The translations under genes and the position numbers were made by a program. DNA of 39,073 nt from a bacterium (GTDB lineage Bacteria > Patescibacteriota > Gracilibacteria > BD1-5 > UBA6164), in contig JAGXIV010000030.1 of NCBI GenBank assembly GCA_024635485.1, positions 1-39,073 of the forward strand, in the 5' to 3' direction. The notes beneath the pieces are model-generated. The model saw nothing but the letters and a program-made list of their open reading frames with translations, did not search any database and was not told the origin of the DNA. Positions 14,899 to 36,868 of this stretch are shown piece by piece. Within the stretch, counting starts at the first letter, position 1; the number at the start of each line of letters is the position of its first letter.

Positions 14899-16326
14899 CT
14901 ATTTCCTTAAAATTCCTTCCAGTTCGTTAAGAGCATTTTCTATCAACTTTTCATTATCTTTGAGTTCCTGCATAATCTCAGTTGGTTTTCTAATTTCTGC
15001 TTCTGCTTTCTTATTTGGATTCTTTGCTGAAATATCAAAGTCTTTTATATCTTCGATATTCACTATCCATGAATTATCTCAGAGCTCTCGTTTTTTGAGA
15101 AGTGCTGGAATATGTTCTAATTCACTGTATTGCAGAGGTTTATTTTTCGTCAGTTTTCTATCGAGATTGATTTCATAAAACCATATATCTTTGGTGCTTC
15201 CTTCTCGGTCAAAGAATATAACATTGGTTTTTACTCCAGAATATGGAAGAAATACTCCTGCAGGAAGTGAAACAATACTATGCAGGTTAAAATCCTCAAG
15301 CATTATTTTCTTAATTTCTTGAAATGCATTTCCCGTATTGAAGAGCACTCCTTCAGGAATAACAATTGCTGCCTTACCTGAGAGCTTCATATACTTCATA
15401 ATATGCTGCAAAAAGAGCATTTCTGTAGCGTTTGATTTTATCGGAAAGTTTTGTTGAATCGTGTCTTTTTCTTTTCCTCCAAACGGTGGATTAGCAAGGA
15501 CAATATCAAACCTATCTTTTTCTTGAATCTGTCTTACATCTGTAGTCAGAGTATTTTTCTTGATAATATTTGGATTTGAGATTCCATGAAGAATCAAGTT
15601 CATCACTCCCATAATATACGCAAGTCCTGTTTTTTCATTCCCAAAAAAGCTTTCTCTTTTCAGGAATTCAAGCTGCTTTTCATTCATATCTTGCTCCACC
15701 ATATAATCATATGCTTGAATCAAGAATCCTCCACTTCCCACAGCAGGGTCATAGACTGTTTGCCCCACACGTGGATCTACTGCATGGACCATCATCTTAA
15801 TAATACTTCTCGGAGTATAAAACTCACCACTATTTCCTCCATCACTTCCCATACCATGAAGGAGGTCTTCATAGACTTGTGAGAGTTCAAAGAGGTCTTC
15901 TGATTTCTGAAAACTCAGGTCATCAATAATATCGAGTATTTCTCTCAAAGTATGTCCTGAATCAATACGATTATCTACAAAAGAAAATATCTCTCCTATC
16001 TTGTATCTGAGTGTATGATAATCTTCGTTAATTCCTCTGAAAGATTTGAAGTATGGAAAGAGTTCATTATTCACAAAGTCTTTGAGATCGTCACCTGAAG
16101 TCTGTTTATTCACTCCATGAGCCCAGCTCTTCCATCTGTATTTTTCCTCTATCGTATAGTTATAGCTTCGTCCATCAAGCAGCGCATTATCTGCCTCACG
16201 AGTCTCGAAATCATCAAGAAACTTCAAAAAGAGTATCCAGCTAATTTGCTCGGTATAGTGCATCGCTCCCGAGATTCCATCATCTCTCCTGAGTATATCT
16301 GTGATTCTTGCGATTTGTTGTCTCAT
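14899..16326 (-). CDS. hsdM: Type I restriction-modification system methyltransferase subunit HsdM
   Basis: A 475-residue N6-adenine methyltransferase that, with HsdS, protects host sites. The N-terminal HsdM domain reads ITDILRRDDGISGAMHYTEQ. The SAM-binding region has GEFYTPRSIIKMMV and DPAVGSGGFLIQAYDY; the catalytic NPPF motif is DIVLANPPFGGK, then IVIPEGVLFN. It is read to TAG 14899 through a single TGA (15079). That is 1 TGA among 31 glycine codons, against 22 of 28 in hsdS next door, so codon use suggests a different history. It follows hsdS by 17 nt and is the last gene of the operon; the usual order is R-M-S or M-S-R. Start ATG 16326; the nearest upstream in-frame stop is at 16345. 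Confidence 0.97.
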
Positions 16327-16344
16327 AGTTTCGTAGATTAGATA

Positions 16345-17553
16345 TTATTCACTTACCAGCCTCCCCTCAAATGCATCTCTCAGCAAACTCTGTTTCATCT
16401 CCCTCAGACTTGCTATCTTTTCCTCATAGTTTTCTTTCAGTCTCTTGTTTCCCTCAAACACCTTATCCAAATGTTCCACAATTTCTTTTTGCTTTTCGAG
16501 AGGTGGAAGTGGGATTTTTATTTGTTTTAGAATTTTAACTGAAGCTACATTTTTTATTGCTGCTCATTTTGAATATTTAGTAATTTCATCTTGAAAAACT
16601 ATACTCTCCATAAAAAGTTTTAAATACCTATTTGTAAGCTCTTTTTTTGACTTTAAAGCTAATAATGCTTGGTTTATAATTCATTTCTTGATTCATTGTG
16701 GAACAATCGAGACTTTTCACATCGTTCAAGAACAACTCATTATTAAGTTTCAAGGTTTTAATTCAAATCTCTTCATTTCATTAAACTTTTCTTCATCAAT
16801 AAAATATCTAATTTCACTATATTGATTTCATATAGCATGCATTTGCTCATAAATAGCATATCAAGATTTCTTAAATATTTCCTTTTTTAAACTTCCTCAG
16901 AATGGTCATCTAACAAAATCACAAACCTCTCAAAAAATAGCTTCTTTAAATTTATTATCTCAAAAAAATTCCTCAAGCACACTCATCCCAAGCTCCTCAA
17001 CATTCTCAAGATTCTTCTGTGCAAGCTCTATATTTGCATCTATCTTTTCAAAGGCTGTATCGAGTTTTTGCACGATTGCTTTTTGGGTTGAGAAAGGTGG
17101 GAGAGGGATTTCCATATTCTCTAAATCTGTATTTTTTAAATTTAGAATATTTACTCACTGAGAAAAATTATAAATATAGTTCTTGTAATAATCAGAAACT
17201 AAAAAGTATCAAATATAATTTATATTGTTTTCAGAATTCAATCTGAACATACTACAAAAAGCTCAAAAAGAATAGTTATCAAGTTTCGGAATAATAGTAT
17301 TTTTTCAAACTAGATGTTTACTTCAGCTAGACATACAAAAAATTATATCATTTTCTTCTAGAACTTTTTCCTCCTTTATAAAACCTTTTGGAAGGTATTG
17401 TAAGTCATTTAAGAGAAGTCCTTCATTTATATTATTTGCTCTAAGCAAAGAAACACATCATTTTTGATATTCAGGTAATAAATCTCATTTACTATAAGTA
17501 ATTCATCTTAAAAAGATTCATATTTCTCAGAGTTTTTTTAGTGGGTATGACAT
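16345..17553 (-). CDS. hsdS: Type I restriction-modification specificity subunit HsdS
   Basis: A 402-residue DNA-recognition subunit with two target-recognition domains. TRD1 covers residues 1 to about 150; the first central conserved helix begins at MEIPLPPFSTQKAIVQKLD. TRD2 opens FGEVCDFVRGPFGGSLKKEI and includes LIMSCSGTMGKVSIV, then IKIPLPPLEKQKEIVEHLDK starts the second conserved helix and the protein ends LRDAFEGRLVSE. Length and duplicated layout are those of a full HsdS. Of 28 glycine codons, 22 are TGA. It lies between the small membrane protein (73 nt upstream, with a hairpin in the gap) and hsdM (17 nt downstream). The target sequence cannot be predicted from the TRDs by eye. Confidence 0.95.
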
Positions 17554-17594
17554 AGATTTTTTATGTTTTTATTGTTACTCTTATTATATGTTTT

Positions 17595-17651
17595 TTGGCT
17601 TAAAGTAAAAGAGAGATACTGTATTTTTATTTATTTTTACTTTTTAGCCAA
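17595..17651. repeat. Long imperfect inverted repeat between the RexB-like gene and hsdS
   Basis: TTGGCTTAAAGTAAAA (17595-17610) is nearly the reverse complement of TTTTACTTTTTAGCCAA (17635-17651), with a 24-base loop. It includes the last codons and stop of the RexB-like gene. No T-run follows on either strand, so it is not an ordinary terminator. It could retard transcription or processing between the upstream genes and hsdS-hsdM, or mark the junction of the inserted genes. Confidence 0.55.
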
Positions 17652-18046
17652 AGTAAAAATACTCCAAGTGAATATATACATATTCTTAAAAATGAGACTG
17701 TTATTATTCATATAAATATATTAAAATAAATATATTCAAATATGTTCGAAAAATTTTTTAAAATAAATGTGAAACTTCAGAATATTACTAAATAAAGAAC
17801 ATAAGAAATAGAAATTTTTACGAATTGAGAACTTCTTTTAAACCTATTTATTTTCTCTGAATTTGAAAAAATAAATATAGATGGTAATCAAGCAATTACA
17901 GTTATAAATTCAGGTATTTCAATATAATTATAAGGAATATTTATATATAAAAGAAAGAAAAAAACTACAAGAAAAAAATCAACAATAATAATATGAGAAA
18001 AATATTTGTCTGTAGTATAGTATAGTATCTTTAAAAGACTATTCAT
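17627..18046 (-). CDS. RexB-like four-helix membrane protein (candidate abortive-infection channel)
   Basis: A 139-residue protein with four predicted membrane helices (about residues 18-36, 46-61, 77-96, 110-133), a basic cytoplasmic loop (EKINRFKRSSQ, 64-74) and a charged tail. Lambda RexB is about 144 residues with four helices and is the ion channel that depolarises the membrane in phage exclusion. From memory, the alignment runs along the length: the basic loop after helix 2, and SFLRICI (118-124) here against SFIHICI in RexB. The gene overlaps the end of its 306-residue partner by 8 nt (ATGAATAG), as expected for a translationally coupled pair. Three of four glycines are TGA. The name rests on topology, pairing and short similarities, so it needs a profile search. 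Alternative: another small membrane effector. Confidence 0.6.
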
Positions 18047-18959
18047 ATTGTGTTAATTTATGAAGTTCATCTTTATTGGTATTGAATGAATCCTTCATTT
18101 TATTGAAAATATCATCTTCGTCTATTTCTCTACTCTTTCATAACTTTACTACAGTTATTTCAGTCTTAAATTTATCTTGTAAAAAATCATAAACTTTTAC
18201 TTTATTTTCACTCTTACTTAATGCTCTTACCTTAAATTCATTAAAGTTTTTTCAAATTTCATATCATATTTTTTCAAGTTCATTTTTTAATTCGTCTGCA
18301 TTTTGTAATATAGGTTTTCTAGATCTTTTTTCTGCTTTCAGAGTTACAGTAATTTCTCATGTATCTCAAAATTGATAGCTGTTAAAAAAAGCACTAAATA
18401 TTGAATTATCTTCTTTTGGAAAGTTACCAATATGTGTTTTTGGTATTGAAAATGTAAAAGATTTGATTTCCTTTAAGTCATCAATTTTTTCTAGAATTTC
18501 ATAATTTAAAATAGGCTGTAATTCAACTTCATCTATTCACCATTCAGCATTATTATTAGCTCTATCATTCAAATGCCACTCTAAAGTTCAAAATCTTGGT
18601 CAGTAATGATTATATTCTATGAGAAGTATTTCTCTACTAGGGGAATATAAAAAATGAGTAGTCTCAGTAATTCATTCATCAAATTTTAATCATATATCTG
18701 TAAGGTTTTTATCTCACATTTTCCCTTTTTTTGGAATACCATTCATTCTCATTCATGACATAACTCAAAACACAAAGCCATCTTTTTCTTTTAAATCTCT
18801 TAAAAAAACTCTTTCATCATCAAAACTTTTACTAGTATACATATCGTCTCATACAAGAGAATTTATATATAGTAATATGTCTCTTAGTGAACCTGTATTT
18901 TTTGTCTTGATTTTAAAGAAAGAAATATTTCTCTTGGCTGTAAGTACTTTTTGAACCAT
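18039..18959 (-). CDS. RexA-like cytosolic protein (candidate abortive-infection sensor)
   Basis: A 306-residue soluble protein without signal or membrane segments, placed directly before the RexB-like gene and overlapping it by 8 nt. Lambda RexA (about 279 aa) is a DNA-binding sensor that triggers RexB. From memory, matching features in the same order are: an N-terminal strand followed by YINSLVGDD (31-39; RexA has FLNSLLADN), an EGITETTHFLYSP segment, YGPRFGTLEWHL (119-130; RexA FGPTTSDLTDFL), VELQPI (145-150; RexA VQIEPL), then a beta-rich half with ITVTLKAEKRSRKPI and FKVRALSKSENK. Identity is low. About 14 of 19 glycines are TGA, so the gene is adapted to this code. It starts 6 nt after the 99-aa gene. 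Confidence 0.58.
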
Positions 18960-18965
18960 ATAATT

Positions 18966-19265
18966 TTATTTAAATTTTAAACTTATTTTTATACTTTGAA
19001 TATTTTCACTACTTGTATCTCCTTGTAATCGCTTACTAGTACTTGTATCTGTATCAGATGTATTTTTAAGAAAGCCCCTATTCTCTGTTCGTATTTTATC
19101 TGCTTTTGTTTTTAATCCGCTACTTGTGAGTCAGAAACGACTCTCGAGTTTACTTCAATCACTTTTAATTACAGAGGCAGTACAATATATTGCTTCTTCA
19201 ATCTGTTTTGGAGAATACTTTGCTAGAGATTCTTCGATAAGTTGTTTTTTAGTAATTTTTGGCAT
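18966..19265 (-). CDS. Small hydrophilic protein of unknown function in the defence operon
   Basis: A 99-residue protein I do not recognise. The first 35 residues look helical (PKITKKQLIEESLAKYSPKQ, then IEEAIYCTASVIK). The middle is basic and Ser/Thr-rich (KSDGSKLESRFGLTSSGLK), and the C-terminal third is low-complexity Thr/Ser/Asp with a final strand-like SIKISLKFK. It contains two TGA glycines (VIKSDG, ESRFG). The gene lies 38 nt after the 349-aa gene and 6 nt before the RexA-like gene, so it is in the same operon. It could be an adaptor or a regulator of its neighbours; nothing in the sequence decides. Confidence 0.65.
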
Positions 19266-19303
19266 ATTTATAAAAATTTTAAGTAATAATTTTTCAAGAT
19301 AAT

Positions 19304-20353
19304 CTAATCAGTAGAACTAAATAAAGGCTTATTAACTAAATCGACATTTAACAATTTTAATTTAGGTTTTTTATATTCATTTTCTCTTAATATTTCAGCC
19401 TCTAACTTCAATATTTTACTTTCTCAATAGTAACTTATATAGTTTTCTGTTGTCTCTCAATATGGAAGATTCACAACGAATAGAAAATCCTCTCAATGCT
19501 TATTTTTAGTTTGTACCATTTTTCAATCAATTTTTACAAGTTGAGTTTTAAACTTCATAGTTTCTCATTTATTACTTTGCATAGCTGTAAAACTTCCTAA
19601 AAACTCATATTTTTGCCCATTAACTAAGAATGGTAAAATTTCACTTCATTCTCCTAAAAATAAATTTATATTTGAAGAGTTAATTATACTTTCCTCATTA
19701 CCAATTTTGATACTTTCAATATCATCGTTAATAATTGGTTCTAATAATTCTTTAGCTTTTCATTTATTTATAACTGTATTTTTTAACTTTTTTAAGTACT
19801 TTCATTTAACATGAATTCAATCTAAAACAATTTCCTGCCCATCATTTGAATTATCAATAGAAACATTATTTTTCAATTTCTTATTTACTATAAAATAGTA
19901 AATTTTTTCTAATAATTTATCTAAGATTTTCAAACTATAATGAGTTCAAAATCAAACTCAAATTCAAGAACTTACAGGATTCTGCCTTCAATAAGCCTCT
20001 ATTGATTCCCAAATAGTTTTTACATTAACCTCAGCGTTTAATCAAAAAGTATTAACAATATTTTCTTGAACATAATTAAAAATTTCTAAGTCAACTACTT
20101 TTAAAATATCTAAAAATGTATTTGGAGTTAAAAATAACTCTAATAATTCATATTGAAAAATAATATCTATTATGATACTTCATTTTCGTATATCATATAT
20201 TTTTAACTCTACATTTTCTACATTAACATCAAAAGATTTAAAACTTGATTTGATAAATTTTTCGTATCAAGCAAGGGCATTTGATAAGTCTTGAATTTTA
20301 ATTCAGTCGTCTACATCTCATTCAAATTTTAAAAATGTTGATTCAGTATTCAT
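19304..20353 (-). CDS. Uncharacterised 349-residue protein between hsdR and the Rex-like genes
   Basis: Not recognised. A soluble alpha/beta protein starting MNTESTFLKFEGDVDDG, then LSNALAGYEKFIKSSFK, a phrase of the kind seen in some defence-linked proteins with an N-terminal beta-strand followed by a helix for scanning or oligomerisation. The middle has IIIDIIFQYELLELFL and a Gly stretch (SSGIGVGFGTHYSLKILDKL), almost all with TGA glycines. The C-terminal third is beta-rich (FLVNGQKYEFLGSFTAMQ) and ends LLNVDLVNKPLFSSTD. About four in five glycines are TGA. The gene begins 5 nt after the hsdR stop, so it is co-transcribed with it. A role in the restriction complex or in the Rex-like module is inferred from position only. 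Confidence 0.7.
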
Positions 20354-20358
20354 TTATA

Positions 20359-22689
20359 CTATTTACTATATAAACTTCTCTGAACCTCATAATATGCTTC
20401 CACCAGCTTCTCCATTCCTCAAAATTCCTGAGCTATTTCTCGGGCTTGTCATTTTCAATAGAGTTCTATTTTTCTTGAAAGTCTATCTTTTCGGAAATCT
20501 AAAATCCCTTGTTTTACGTAGAGAGCAAGGAGAAAATCAAGAAATTCTTGAGCTTTGAGGCTCTCATAATGCTCTATAATTCCCTTTGCATATTCACTTC
20601 TCTCTTGTCGATACTTAATATCTGAATCAAATGAGAGATGAGCGAGAATATCAAAAATATCTGAGTTTTCAGCATGAAACATTCGCTTTAAATCATCGAG
20701 TTGGTCTTTTTCTATTCCAAGTTTTGCGAGGTTTTCTAAAAGCTCTTGTCTCGTATCAGGATTAGCCCACAACATACGAAGTTGGTGTTCGTCAGTATAG
20801 AGTTTTGGAAGCTCTCACACTATTCTTTCTAAAAATGCCTCACTTGATAAGTGTTTTCCCGTTACTGGGTCGAGATAGCGAGTTTCTATATCTATAACTT
20901 TCACTTCTCTACTTGGTCAAAGTTTTACTATAAGTTTTTCTTGTTTTTCTCATGGTCCATCTCATGGAATAATCTCTTCATCTCACTCAGGTTTTTCTTT
21001 TGGAGTTTTTGGTGGTATATTATCAGGTTCTATTATTTCAATATCTTCCGGAGCACCATCCCATATTTCATCACTAAAATCATTGGTAGCACCCATGAAA
21101 TCATATATCGTGAAAAAGTCTTTTCCCTCAAAGACTCTAGTTCCTCTCCCAACTATCTGTTTATATTCTACGATACTTCATATATTTCGAACAAGGATAA
21201 TATTTCGCACATTGAGAGCGTCTACTCAGGTTGTAAGCATCTGAGAACTCGTCAAAATAACAGGAATATCTTTATCATTATCCTGAAAACGTTCTAAATA
21301 TCTTCGTCCTATTTCTCATTCATTACTCGTCACTCTCACGCAGTAATCAGGATCTTTTACAGATTTGTATTTATTGATACTATCTCGAATACGCAGTGCA
21401 TGTCATTGGTCCACACAGAAAATAATAGATTTTTCCATTTTTCCTATTTGCTGCAAGATTGTACTTGCAATAATATCGCTCCTCTCTTCTATGATTATAT
21501 TTCTCTCCATATCAGGAGCATAATACACATCTTTTTTACTACTTCCTGAAACGATTTCATCTCATGAATTAAGAACAAGTTCATCAATATTGAGTTTGAT
21601 TCGTTTAATCTTAAACGGAGTCAAAAAACCATCATCAATTCAGGCTTTGAGTGAATATTCATAAATAGGAGCACCAAAATATTTATAGGTATCCACATTA
21701 TCATCTCGTTTTGGAGTCGCTGTCAGACCTATTTGTACGGCACTTTCAAAATACCTGAGAATTTCAGACCAGTTTCCTTGCTCTTTTGCTCCTCATCTAT
21801 GACACTCATCTATAATAATGAGGTCAAAAAAGTCTTTTTCATATCTATTATAGTACGCTTCTTCAACTATTTCTCCCTCTCAATCATCTCACTGAGCTCA
21901 TCCAACAAGTGCTTGATATATAGCAAAAAATATATTTGAATTCTTAGGGACTTTTCCTCCTCGTTTTTTGATTTCTACTCCATTGATTTTGAGAATATCT
22001 TTTTCCATAGGATTAAAAGTGTTCATTGCTTGATCTACAAGTACATTTCTATCTGCAAGAAAGAGGATTCTCGGTCTTCTAACTCCTATTCCATCAAGGC
22101 TCCAACGAGCCTGAAACAGCTTATAAGCCATTTGAAAAGCTATCACTGTTTTTCCTGTTCCCGTTGCAAGCGTCAGAAGAATTCTTTTTTTATCCTCAGC
22201 AAGAGCTTCCATAGATTTTTGAATCGCTATTTCTTGATAGTATCTTGGTTTCTTTTCTGAAAGAAGAAAAGGTTCTGAGAGAAGTGCTTGTTTTGTTGTA
22301 TCTATTTCTCAAAATATCTTTGTATATAGTTCTTCAGGGCTTGGAAAACTTTCAAGTATTTCTCATTTTCACTCCTGTAGGTCAAACTCATATATTCATT
22401 TTCCATTTGATGAATACACAAATCGAAGATTTAGGCATTTTCCATATTCTTTTACTTGTTCAAGTCCCTCTGTTATTTCGAGTTCGTATTTTTTTGCCTC
22501 TATTATAGCAAGCTTGATTCACTTATGCGTCAGTATATAATCAGCAAATTTTCTTGTTCCTCGTTTTCCTCCAAGTCCTTTTCTTCCATCTGTAAAATAG
22601 TGCTCTCTCACGATGTGAGATTCACTCCAATTACTAGATATGAGCTTCGGGTCTATAAACTTACTACGAGTGTCACTTTCTGAATACAT
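20359..22689 (-). CDS. hsdR: Type I restriction endonuclease subunit HsdR (EcoEI-like)
   Basis: A 776-residue restriction and translocation subunit. The N-terminal nuclease has FADYILTHKG and LAIIEAKK near residues 48-65 (the D-ExK catalytic pattern). The SF2 motor has Walker A LATGTGKTVIAFQ near residue 175, ILFLADRNVLVDQA, the DECH box IIIDECHRGG near residue 296, and later helicase motifs. The C-terminal domain (MLWANPDTRQELLENL onward) matches EcoEI-type HsdR. Length is normal for that subgroup. It is the first gene of the operon, behind a promoter at 22719-22746. TGA-glycines are present but fewer than in the four genes after it. The chain ends LVEAYYEVQRSLYSK then TAG. Confidence 0.96.
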
Positions 22690-30569: not shown

Positions 30570-32402
30570 ATGCAGAGTTTTTTTGATATTATCATAAATT
30601 TTTGGTATGATTTCAGTGATTTTATGAGAGATACTTGGTATTCGATTCTCGATAATAAACTCATATCTGGAGGTATTTTTATAGCCCTTATGTGAGTTTG
30701 ATACGCATCTTATACCTACGTACTCCCTACTTTTTCAAAAAGTGCTTCTTGAATTTTAGCACAATCTGGAAGTGATATACCAACAGATCCTCAAAATACA
30801 GATAACTCTGTAACATCTGAAGAAAATATTTCTGAAACTGCAGAAAATGAAACTATTGGAGACGAGCTTTGAGATATTCAAAATACAGAAAATACTGACA
30901 CAAATAATAGCTGAGAAACATCTGAATGATGAGAAAACAAGACCCCCGGAAGCACAGTAGCTTGAAATACTACTACTCCCACTCCACCCTGAACTAATCC
31001 TAATACTCCACCTGAGCAGACAACTCAGCAAGCAGTTAATTCACAAAATCCTGATATTCTTCTGGATCCACTTTCTCCAACAAATAATCCAGAAAGTACT
31101 ATTCCTGATCAGATTGTTGAACATGTAGAAGTAATTCCTGAAAAAAGTTTTATTCGAACTCTTATAGAGAGGTTTATTCCACCAGCAGAAAATACTGAAA
31201 ATATCCCAGAAAATGAAGCAACGCTGAATCAAGATAATACACAACAAACTACTACTTCAGTGGGTAGTCCTGTAAATTCAAATACTTCATGAACGACAGA
31301 AACAACAGGGACTGTTTCAGGAACAACTGGGACTGTTTCAGGAACAAGTGGAACATCTACTACTACAAATTCAGGAACAAGCTCTACTAATAATACCTGA
31401 ACTGCTTCGACTGGGACTTCGGGAACGACCTCTACTTCGGGAACAAGTGGAACTACTACTACGAGTTCTGGAACAATAACTACCAATAATACCTGAACTG
31501 CTTCTACTGGGACTTCTGGAACTACCTCTACTTCGGGAACAAGTGGAACATCTACTACTACAAGTTCTGGAACTACATCTACCAATAATACCTGAACTGC
31601 TTCTACTGGGACTTCTGGAACTACTTCTACTTCTGGAACCACCTCTACCTCGGGAACAAGTGGAACATCTACTACTACAAGTTCTGGAACTACATCTACC
31701 AATAATACCTGAACTGCTTCTACTGGGACTTCTGGAACTACCTCTACTTCGGGAACTACTTCTACCTCGGGAACAAGTGGAACATCTACTACTACAAGTT
31801 CTGGAACTACCTCTACTTCTGGAACAAGTTCTGGGACGACATCTACGAGTTCTGGAACGACCTCTACTTCTGGAACAACTGAAACATCTACTACTACGAG
31901 TTCTGGGACGACAACTACGACTTCTGGAACAACTGAAACATCTACTACTACGAGTTCTGGGACGACTTCCACTGCTTCAAATGGGGGGCAAGACGGAACT
32001 ACTGCCTGAAACGTATGACCTGACGGAAATGTAGTTGAAACAGAAGTAGATACATATCAAAATAATCCAGCGAGCTTTAATACCTGAAACGGAAGTGTTC
32101 CAATAAAAGTAGTAGCTGTACATTCAAGAGTTCCCATTAAGCCAAAAGCATGAGCTTGTCCAAGTGGATATTCTCTCTTTGGTATTAATTCTAATATCTA
32201 TGAAAACACGACCCTTCTACTTCCCTATACGACAAATGGAAATAACATGACACTTACAAATCAATTTATTCGTAAAAATGGAAGTGATTACTATTTCAAA
32301 ATTTTTAATGTAAATGGGACTAAGATTGGATGAGTTATATATAAAGTATGAAATCCTGATGTTGACTATCATTGGGCCTTCAGTATTTGTTTACAACAAT
32401 AG
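30570..32402 (+). CDS. Membrane-anchored Thr/Ser/Gly-repeat surface protein
   Basis: A 610-residue protein. The N-terminus is cytoplasmic (residues 1-33), one helix follows (LISGGIFIALMGVGYASYTY), then an acidic Asn/Glu/Ser/Pro-rich stalk (residues 60-225). About 240 residues of degenerate TSGTTSTSGT-type repeats (229-468) follow, resembling heavily glycosylated stalks, and a C-terminal domain of about 140 residues with single Cys positions (AGACPSGYSLFG). No classical cleavable signal peptide is visible; the helix likely acts as a signal anchor. The gene starts 1 nt after the large prepilin and stops with TAG three bases from the end of convergent umuC. Its partner and shape suggest a cell-surface or pilus-associated adhesin. 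Many TGA glycines lie in the phrase NNTGTAST. Confidence 0.85.
31257..31975 (+). repeat. Thr/Ser/Gly-coding repeat array
   Basis: About 720 bp of imperfect tandem repeats built from ACT/TCT/GGA codons. Longer blocks recur, with the phrase AATAATACCTGAACTGCTTC appearing four times. Open frames on the other strand across this region are by-products of the repeats. Confidence 0.85.
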
Positions 32403-34127: not shown

Positions 34128-35027
34128 ATGAAAAAATTACTCTTTCTTTGATTATTTCTCTTTGGTACCCTATTTGCAAGTCTATGAAATACCTATGCTT
34201 GTTCATGTGTTATGCCTGCTGATCCTCTCACAAGTCTCGAATCATCTGACGCAGTATTTAGCTGAAAAGTTACTCGAGTTTCAGAAGGTGAACAACAAAA
34301 TACAATCCTTTTTGATATAAGTAAGTCATGGAAAGGAACAGACGCAGACACACTTCAAATACAGACAAATAATAACTCAGCAGCTTGCGGTTACAATTTT
34401 GAAAAAGATGCAGAATATATAGTCTATGCCTATAAGAACCAAGATGATACACTCAATGTTTCATTATGTTCTCGGACAGCTGAGCTTGCCAGAGCAGAGG
34501 AAGATGTATTTGCACTTAATAGAGAAGAAAGTGCAGCATCTGCAGGTGAATTCTGTGGAGGGATTGCCAACCTACAATGTAGCACTGGTCTGGTATGTGA
34601 TATAAAAGAAACGTATCCAGATGCAGGTGGAAAATGTATAGTAGAAGAACCTACAATGTGTACGATGCAATATGACCCAGTATGTGGAGTAGATGGGAAA
34701 ACCTATGGAAATGCTTGTACAGCAGGAAAAAACCCAGTAGCCTACAAAGGTGAATGTAGTAGCCCTACAAAAATAGCTGAACTTGAATCTCAAATAAATG
34801 CAAAAACGCTCAATCTTTTAGACAAGAGTCTTGCCACTTACAAACTAAAACTGCTAGATAAAACAGCATCAGAAAAAAACTTACTCAATACACTTGTTCT
34901 CCAAAGAGTAGAAACAGCAAAAGAAGATATAGCCGAAAAATATAGTGCTCCATCTGAGAGAAATGTTCTTGAGAGAATTCTCAATGTTCTCGAACTTCTC
35001 AAATTCAAAGTAGCTGGAATGCTCTAA
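34128..35027 (+). CDS. Secreted multidomain protein: TIMP/NTR-like, Cys-rich and Kazal-type protease-inhibitor domains
   Basis: A 299-residue exported protein. The signal peptide ([20 protein letters not shown], then NTYA) would leave a mature N-terminus beginning CSC at residues 25-27, as in TIMP/netrin-like (NTR) proteins, with VFSGKVTRV and C-terminal Cys of that domain (AACGY, LCSRT). Residues 142-173 ([19 protein letters not shown]...KC) look like an IGFBP/WAP-type Cys module. Residues 178-209 are a Kazal domain: [20 protein letters not shown] ending YKGEC. The last 85 residues form charged helices ([17 protein letters not shown]). Domain calls rest on Cys patterns; Kazal is firm, NTR-like good, the middle one moderate. 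Only three TGA glycines, all in the first 47 residues. Role inferred: protecting the cell or inhibiting proteases outside it. Confidence 0.83.
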
Positions 35028-35040
35028 TGGTATAGAAACA

Positions 35041-35072
35041 AAAAAATAATCCCTCGTAAGGGATTATTTTTT
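35041..35072. terminator. Terminator between the inhibitor-like gene and the transglutaminase-like gene
   Basis: AAAAAATAATCCC pairs with GGGATTATTTTTT around TCGTAA. It ends the plus-strand gene and can also act on the minus strand, where the next stop is at 35102. Confidence 0.88.
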
Positions 35073-35101: not shown

Positions 35102-36868
35102 TTAATCTCAGAGGATATACACAGCATATCTTTGAAATATTCCCTTTTCATACATTTCAAATACTCGTACATTACTCAGATTATAGTCACTCTCTTTCAA
35201 AATATATGATATATCATCTTGGGAAGAATCAATTGGATAATAGTTAAAGACTCCTCCTATTCATTCAATTTTTTGAGTTATTTTATTATCAACAAGAGAG
35301 AGTTTTTCTACTTTTATACGGTCTAGTATATCTCCAAGGACTATATCTTTTTCAAAATTGAGATTATTTTCTTTTTTTAAATATAACTCGTCAAGGAGTC
35401 TATAGTTTCGGGTTTTAGAATATTTATCCAAAAGATTGACTCTGCTCATGATAATTTCTTTGTTTAAGGCCTCTTTTGAGAGAGTGCTGTATCACTCTGG
35501 CATATCTAGTAAATTGAAGCGATTGGAATATGTGAGATCAAACGGAAGTTTATAATACAAATAATCACTCACATCTTCTTGGTATTGTGGTTCAAAAAAT
35601 GGGTCATAAAAATCATTTCACACCTTGAGCCACGAATGTCATACATTTGGAAAATCTAGCGAGTCAAGCACATATCATTGCATCAATCTCACGTTTTTGA
35701 TTCCTGCAAATTTTAGCATATAGGACATGATACGAGCCTCACCTTCACAAAATCATACTCCTCTCTCAAAAGTATCAAGGCCAGAAAAATTTCTCAAATC
35801 ACTTCTATCGGGATTACTTGGTCGTCAAATATTCTGTTTTACCCAATCATATATTGCGTGAATTTTTTCATCATCACTTTTTAATCCATACGTAAGCTCA
35901 TTCGTTTTTTGAATAATTTTTTGGATCTGTGGATTATAATCCTTATCAATTCTCAAAACATCAATCGTTAAATCATTGATTAAGCTTTGTTCTACTTCTT
36001 CATAATTTTTAAAATCGGATTTTGCAAGTATTTTGATGGGTCGTGGCGAAAAGGTAATAGTATTTTTACCATCTTGCAGTCTCAGCATCACTCCATCATT
36101 TATATCAAATCAAATTTTTTCCCAATCTGATGCATATAAACCATATTCTTGGTAGGTATCATAATACTCATCATATCCATAGGTATAAAATACTCCATCC
36201 TCCTCATAATAATTATCCATATAGAGTAAGAATTTCTTTGGTCCTTGTGCAAGTATCTCTGTAAAAGGTATTTTTCTTTCGATTTTAGGATCGAGAGCTA
36301 CGAAATATCCCATACTTTCGTCATAATATACCGTTTGAAATTGATACTGACTTAAAGATAGTTTTTGAAAATCAGGAAGTAGTTTTACTTCATCAAAAGA
36401 AAGTCTATACACATCATTATTATGCGAATATTCATACTGAGGCGTTACAATTTGAACTCCACTGAGGATATTTTGTTGCCTACGTATTTTATTTTCATAG
36501 GCTTGAATTGCCTGGATTCATTCACGTTTCCAATTCGTAAATCGCAGTATAGTCCCTTCTCTAGAGGCTACATACTGAGATAATTGATACATATTTGAAC
36601 TATTATAATGTAGGAGATTCTTGAGCATAATCTTAGCCTTAGGATTAGAATCAGGAGTCGCCATGACCATAGCACCTACACGTTTGCGTATAGCAACATA
36701 GGTGGGATAATAGTCCTCAATGTCATAATGTGTGACAACATAATTTTTAATAATATTTGAAACTCGCTCAGCCTTCGAAATCTCAGCAAAACTTTGAGGA
36801 ATACTCTGAAGTAACAAAAAATATCATACAGAGCAAATTATAAAAATGTGTCTCAAAAATTTAAACAT
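35102..36868 (-). CDS. Exported transglutaminase-like (papain-fold) protein
   Basis: A 588-residue protein. The N-terminus is basic then hydrophobic (FLRHIFIICSVGYFLLLQSI, ending SFAEI), a signal peptide or anchor. The first 300 residues are Tyr-rich and unassigned (YYEEDGVFYTYGYDEYYDTY). The transglutaminase-like core lies at about residues 330-425: HAIYDWVKQNIG, the catalytic Cys in GVGFCEGEARIMSYMLKFAG (about 374), His in NVGHSWLKVG (about 409) and Asp in FYDPFF. The C-terminal part is helical and unassigned. Such domains act as transglutaminases or cysteine proteases; the reaction here is unknown. It starts 9 nt after the 640-aa gene stop, so the two form an operon. Confidence 0.85.

Follow-up and report, generated by a model that had tools for sequence, protein, structure and literature searches.

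TIMPs are best known from animals, where they regulate matrix metalloproteases, and the locus described here raises the question of what a TIMP-like domain, joined to a Kazal domain on a single chain, is doing in a tiny, probably host-dependent bacterium of the Gracilibacteria. The gene lies in the window (the whole stretch of 39,073 nucleotides analysed here, which lies on contig 5; the genome measures 1.14 Mb and is 93% complete), and its features are collected in Table 1. Its product consists of four parts: a TIMP-type NTR domain with an invariant CSC, a module rich in cysteines, a Kazal domain whose reactive-site loop is intact, and a C-terminal domain of helices. In our view this combination is best explained by a secreted protein with two heads that would inhibit extracellular proteases; the activity is predicted, and we would put the chances that this explanation is correct at about even.

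Table 1. Features of the inhibitor-like gene and its surroundings, in positions of the window.
Feature	Position	Strand	Details
NTR / Cys-rich / Kazal / helical secreted-protein gene	34128..35027	+	299 aa, code 25 (TGA = Gly)
Signal peptide (predicted)	34128..34199	+	residues 1-24, N-T-Y-A just before Cys25; from sequence
TIMP-type NTR domain	34200..34520	+	residues 25-131; Cys25, 27, 87, 114 (mature 1, 3, 63, 90)
Four-cysteine module GEFCGG..C..GLVC..DAGGKC	34545..34643	+	residues 140-172; Cys143, 151, 157, 170
Kazal domain	34650..34760	+	residues 175-211; Cys178, 186, 197, 210; predicted P1 = Met180 at 34665-34667
C-terminal helical domain	34761..35024	+	residues 212-299; model pLDDT ~80-89 for most
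Inverted repeat, probable terminator	35045..35068	.	10-bp perfect stem then T run, between convergent genes; read from sequence

The gene is real and purifying selection acts on it. Its frame (34128..35027, plus strand) runs without interruption when read with NCBI code 25, which turns its three TGA codons into glycines (G8, G20 and G46), and it is flanked by a divergent umuD/umuC-like pair on one side and by a convergent transglutaminase-domain gene on the other. In a sister species (G091), the protein is 73% identical, has the full architecture, keeps 12/12 cysteines and sits among conserved neighbours. The dN/dS ratios against this species (approximately 0.15 for the whole gene, 0.18 for the NTR domain and 0.07 for the Kazal domain) are therefore those of a gene under purifying selection, with the Kazal domain, at 92% identity, as the most constrained module. 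A search of the protein against NCBIfam gave no meaningful match. Between this gene and the divergent umuD-like gene there is a palindrome (ATACTC-n8-GAGTAT), which is not conserved in the sister species and was dropped from consideration.

Some other genes of the window deserve mention in their own right. The convergent neighbour (35102-36868, minus strand) encodes a secreted-looking protein with a transglutaminase core; it is conserved as a neighbour, and its identity to the counterpart in the sister species is only 47%, below that of the genes around it. In the protein encoded at 30570-32402, long Ser/Gly/Thr repeats separate the membrane-anchor-like N-terminus from a C-terminal domain that is kept in the sister species; this protein gave no Pfam match. 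Finally, a type I restriction-like gene set at 14899-22689, with two small genes between, uses TGA unevenly (1/31 glycines in 14899-16326, compared with 74-79% in the inserted genes and in 16345-17553), a hint that these genes are not all of one age in this genome.

The start of the mature protein is central to the argument. Cleavage is predicted between TYA and CSC, giving a mature N-terminus of CSC, and in 33/34 bacterial NTR proteins this triplet is immediately preceded by an A-x-A type motif, whereas only 2/34 fit a lipobox, which favours a free N-terminal cysteine and argues against lipidation of Cys1. The -2 position is mostly Tyr, Phe or His, and [TA]-[YFH]-A is conserved in these proteins. 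This motif evidence is strong that the mature chain would have its Cys1 exposed by signal peptidase. In TIMPs, it is the N-terminal Cys1 that chelates the catalytic zinc.

The resemblance to TIMPs extends beyond the first residues. The CSC triplet and the four cysteines are invariant in an alignment of 13 diverse bacterial NTR domains, and a profile built from 13 bacterial sequences returned, when run against the PDB, 15 sequences at E<=10, all of them TIMPs (best match TIMP-2, 9.8e-9), with profile position 1 on TIMP residue 1. Similarly, phmmer with the whole protein placed query residue 25 on residue 1 of TIMP-1 (E 0.074). The excised NTR domain scored 30.7 bits against the Pfam TIMP model (PF00965, cut-off 23.1); no match to this model was reported for the whole precursor, nor in a six-frame scan of its own genome. 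A template-free AlphaFold model of the domain, made from two sequences only (mean pLDDT 68), has five long strands and two helices, with residues 1-7 at low confidence. Its top 20 Foldseek matches were all NTR-type domains (TIMP-1 at E 4.1e-5, TM 0.74), and VIA-align gave Z scores of 11.8 for agrin NtA, 11.6 for meteorin, 11.4 for TIMP-1 and 11.1 for N-TIMP-3; on these structural matches, the predicted fold of residues 25-131 is NTR. What singles out TIMP among NTR-fold domains is the sequence, together with the CSC at the N-terminus. The TIMP-like start and domain proposed by the sequence-only reading are thus upheld, with the CSC, the Pfam TIMP model, the PDB profile and the predicted fold in agreement, and since an NTR fold was found in the structure prediction, the outcome in which only a Kazal domain would be left did not arise.

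The window domain is nevertheless not simply a TIMP. Like the N-domain of TIMPs, it is predicted to be secreted, to begin with CSC (as TIMP-2 does) and to adopt an OB/NTR fold in the same register, and of the disulfide pairs of N-TIMP, two out of three (C1-C70 and C3-C99) have conserved equivalents in the bacterial NTR domains. However, it is only ~20% identical to TIMPs, its loops are shorter, it has no equivalent of the third pair (C13-C124), and it lacks the six-cysteine C-terminal subdomain of TIMPs, being fused to other modules in its place.

The four-cysteine module that follows is harder to classify. It had been described as IGFBP/WAP-like. The WAP half of this description fails, as the module has four cysteines against the eight needed for a four-disulfide core, and no Pfam WAP match was found. 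Sequence searches with the module gave no match to IGFBP either, and the GCGCCxxC motif of the IGFBP N-terminal subdomain is absent from the protein sequence. The IGFBP half retains some weak structural support: the model of the module resembles IGFBP C-subdomains (SIBD-1, Z 4.9; IGFBP-5, Z 4.3, with 34% identity over 38 residues), knottins scoring alike, and its top Foldseek match is a weak one to IGFBP7 (E 0.016). An assignment to the IGFBP C-half or to a knottin-like fold is therefore best called unproven. The module recurs across the class, alone or ahead of Kazal-like domains, and where it stands alone it is often near the C-terminus of lipoprotein-like precursors.

The Kazal domain, which the sequence-only reading had also recognized, is confirmed by Pfam Kazal_1 (PF00050; 35.4 bits, cut-off 21) and by a match to the sea-anemone elastase inhibitor (1y1b/1y1c; 5.4e-8). 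The middle-module motif CGG..C..GLVC..GGKC and a stretch of 20 residues in the Kazal region are both present as first noted. Ten residues of the reactive loop match the sea-anemone elastase inhibitors exactly, and Met180 is therefore the predicted P1; the apparent conservation of P1 among relatives is biased, as these were retrieved with this Kazal loop. The sea-anemone protein also shares the P15' Asn and a TYGNAC motif with the window domain, which differs from it in having four cysteines and a shorter C-terminal half. Both conserved contact positions, as defined in PMC1236909, are present (P3 Cys178 and P15' Asn195). Only Cys II, III, IV and VI are found, so that the six-cysteine 1-5/2-4/3-6 pattern is incomplete without I and V, and this part of the protein is modelled poorly and at low confidence. 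Most bacterial Kazal copies examined likewise have four cysteines, and some, at two loci, keep I and V. A reduced Kazal domain can be functional: EPI1a of Phytophthora has two disulfides and inhibits subtilisin stably, although the four-cysteine domains differ in what they have lost, EPI1a being without III and VI and the window domain without I and V (PMC1236909).

The C-terminal domain, with four predicted helices in the model, gave no convincing match to a fold family in structure comparison, only generic helical bundles with Z under 8. Homologous C-termini close several other proteins of the order that are predicted to be secreted; some of these have Kazal domains, some do not, and some have a 'TDGCN' domain. 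This part is therefore probably a general positioning or interaction domain and not an inhibitor. A 'FLKAEG..C..ATDGCNT' module is repeated in secreted proteins of the order (nine loci), often beside Kazal domains or the helical C-terminal domain.

How might such a protein work? Signal peptidase I would cut before Cys25 and leave the alpha-amino group and carbonyl of this residue free, and these could chelate the catalytic zinc of a secreted metalloprotease, blocking it in the manner of TIMP Cys1. The Kazal loop, with Met180 at P1, would use the standard mechanism to block a serine protease of the elastase, chymotrypsin or subtilisin type, and the helical domain, common to other secreted proteins of the order, may keep the protein on the cell surface or close to it. 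Extracellular proteases of neighbouring or host cells would be the most probable targets, because neither M10 (PF00413) nor S8 (PF00082) proteases were detected in the organism's own genome, as far as its 93% completeness allows. An exogenous target is thus more likely than a self target, and action on proteases of a host or prey, as the sequence-only reading suggested, is possible. A comparable defence has been suggested for a predatory CPR relative, in which alpha-2-macroglobulin-domain proteins were proposed as protection from host proteases (PMC8080830).

The distribution of these modules bears on both function and origin. As the Pfam TIMP model found nothing above its cut-off in 287 genomes of the phylum, even in the genome studied here, it was too insensitive for a census, and a home-made profile (A1) was used instead. 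With this profile, NTR domains were found in 23/341 genomes of the class, patchily in Gracilibacteria, and in 125/197 genomes of one Paenibacillus family; Kazal and Cys-rich modules are common in the class. The single modules are therefore not unusual in bacteria, contrary to what had been supposed at the outset. The NTR proteins of the Paenibacillus family (14 loci, with one further locus alike) start with CSC, mostly end in a C-terminal transmembrane helix and occur in up to eight copies per genome, and the one full-length protein tested fell below the Pfam TIMP cut-off. The exact order of NTR, Cys-rich, Kazal and helical domains was found in the window genome and G091 only. NTR domains are joined to one or more Kazal domains and a helical C-terminus elsewhere too. 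In G057 the protein (L056:6582-8693) is a 703-residue frame with an N-terminal NTR domain, five Kazal domains, several 'TDGCN' modules and the helical domain at its end, and in G020, G022 and G035 the NTR domain is divergent and lacks the CSC. In other Gracilibacteria, the NTR domain is followed by a transmembrane helix or by S-layer homology domains; at eight loci NTR domains precede S-layer homology repeats, as surface-displayed TIMP-like domains. Each part is known from other bacteria, and the exact combination was found in two sister species only. No relative was found among the viral contigs and phages searched, a plasmid search gave two weak actinobacterial matches, and literature searches brought up no publication on NTR or Kazal proteins from this group.

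Could the gene instead be a mosaic, made by recent horizontal acquisition of TIMP, IGFBP and Kazal domains from animals? The domain set is familiar from animals, and the TGA glycine codons of the window copy (3/19) do all fall within the first 47 residues (P ~0.004, post hoc), so that this part of the earlier observation stands for this gene. However, every module is present in other bacteria, and the window NTR domain is mostly 35-44% identical to other bacterial NTR domains, compared with ~20% to TIMPs. In a tree of 37 NTR domains, the TIMPs stand far apart as a clade whose branch is 2.45 changes per site long, which speaks against recent transfer from animals; the window sequence groups with its sister (97/99), and the deeper branches are weak. 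The mosaic interpretation of the TGA codons was rejected because the orthologue has TGA at residues 8, 20, 140, 168 and 209, that is, in the signal peptide and in the Cys-rich and Kazal modules. We regard an animal origin of this kind as very improbable.

Other functions have to be weighed more seriously. NTR domains also occur in non-inhibitors, such as agrin NtA, meteorin, PCOLCE and complement. The main rival is that the protein serves in binding or attachment at the surface or outside the cell, its modules being stable disulfide scaffolds that inhibit no protease. NTR relatives in the class are displayed on the surface by S-layer homology fusions or transmembrane helices, ligand binding is known for NTR folds such as agrin NtA, which structurally scores as high as TIMP, and the C-terminal domain is common to secreted proteins without inhibitor domains. 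Against inhibition there are also the missing C13-C124 pair, the low confidence of NTR residues 1-7, the poorly modelled Kazal domain without Cys I and V, the lack of a protease gene beside this one, and those NTR and Kazal relatives that lack the N-terminal CSC. A pure binding role nevertheless leaves unexplained both an invariant CSC that would be exposed by signal cleavage and the strong conservation of the Kazal reactive loop, and we consider it rather unlikely. The protein might instead regulate the cell's own extracytoplasmic proteases, for example with the Kazal head restraining HtrA-like enzymes. Two Trypsin_2 (PF13365), HtrA-like protease loci in its own genome are a possible self target, which counts against outside proteases as the targets, and bacterial protease/partner pairs exist, such as the Listeria metzincin and its TIMP-like partner (PMC8235301). 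However, no protease gene adjoins the window gene, no metzincin motif (HExxHxxGxxH) was found in the scanned flanks of NTR genes, PF00413 and PF00082 are missing from the genome, and the full protein is confined to two species while Trypsin_2 proteases are general in control genomes; this role seems improbable. NTR and Kazal domains recur on one chain in G091, in G057 and, where the NTR is divergent, in G020, G022 and G035, and this argues for the two-headed inhibitor.

Combinations of this type have parallels in better known systems. IGFBP7 and HTRA1 carry IGFBP and Kazal modules on one chain. The WFIKKN/GASP proteins unite WAP, follistatin/Kazal, Ig, two Kunitz and NTR modules (PMC3427181). 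Thus, several inhibitor-type modules, including NTR with Kazal, or IGFBP-like then Kazal, are joined in these proteins as in ours, but they are animal proteins with another order and content, and there is no evidence for common descent of the combination. The closest bacterial comparison is Tim of Listeria (PMC8235301), a lipoprotein that has a metzincin as its partner and is likewise a secreted protein with a predicted TIMP-like fold. However, Tim was recognized by structure only and adjoins its protease, whereas the window protein has A-x-A before CSC, matches TIMPs at the level of sequence and has no protease neighbour. That study, from 2021, found no previous description of TIMP-like proteins in bacteria (PMC8235301).

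In summary, the bacterial TIMP-like NTR domains form a widespread family that is hardly described and is mostly missed by the Pfam model. It is possible, though we hold this broader picture only tentatively, that an old bacterial lineage of N-TIMP-type inhibitors with an exposed N-terminal cysteine exists, to which Gracilibacteria fused a Kazal domain to give a dual inhibitor acting at the contact with host or prey. If bacterial NTR domains do inhibit metalloproteases, the TIMP mechanism would be much wider than animals. Furthermore, host-dependent CPR cells would then hold a double-headed shield, or weapon, against the proteases of their neighbours.
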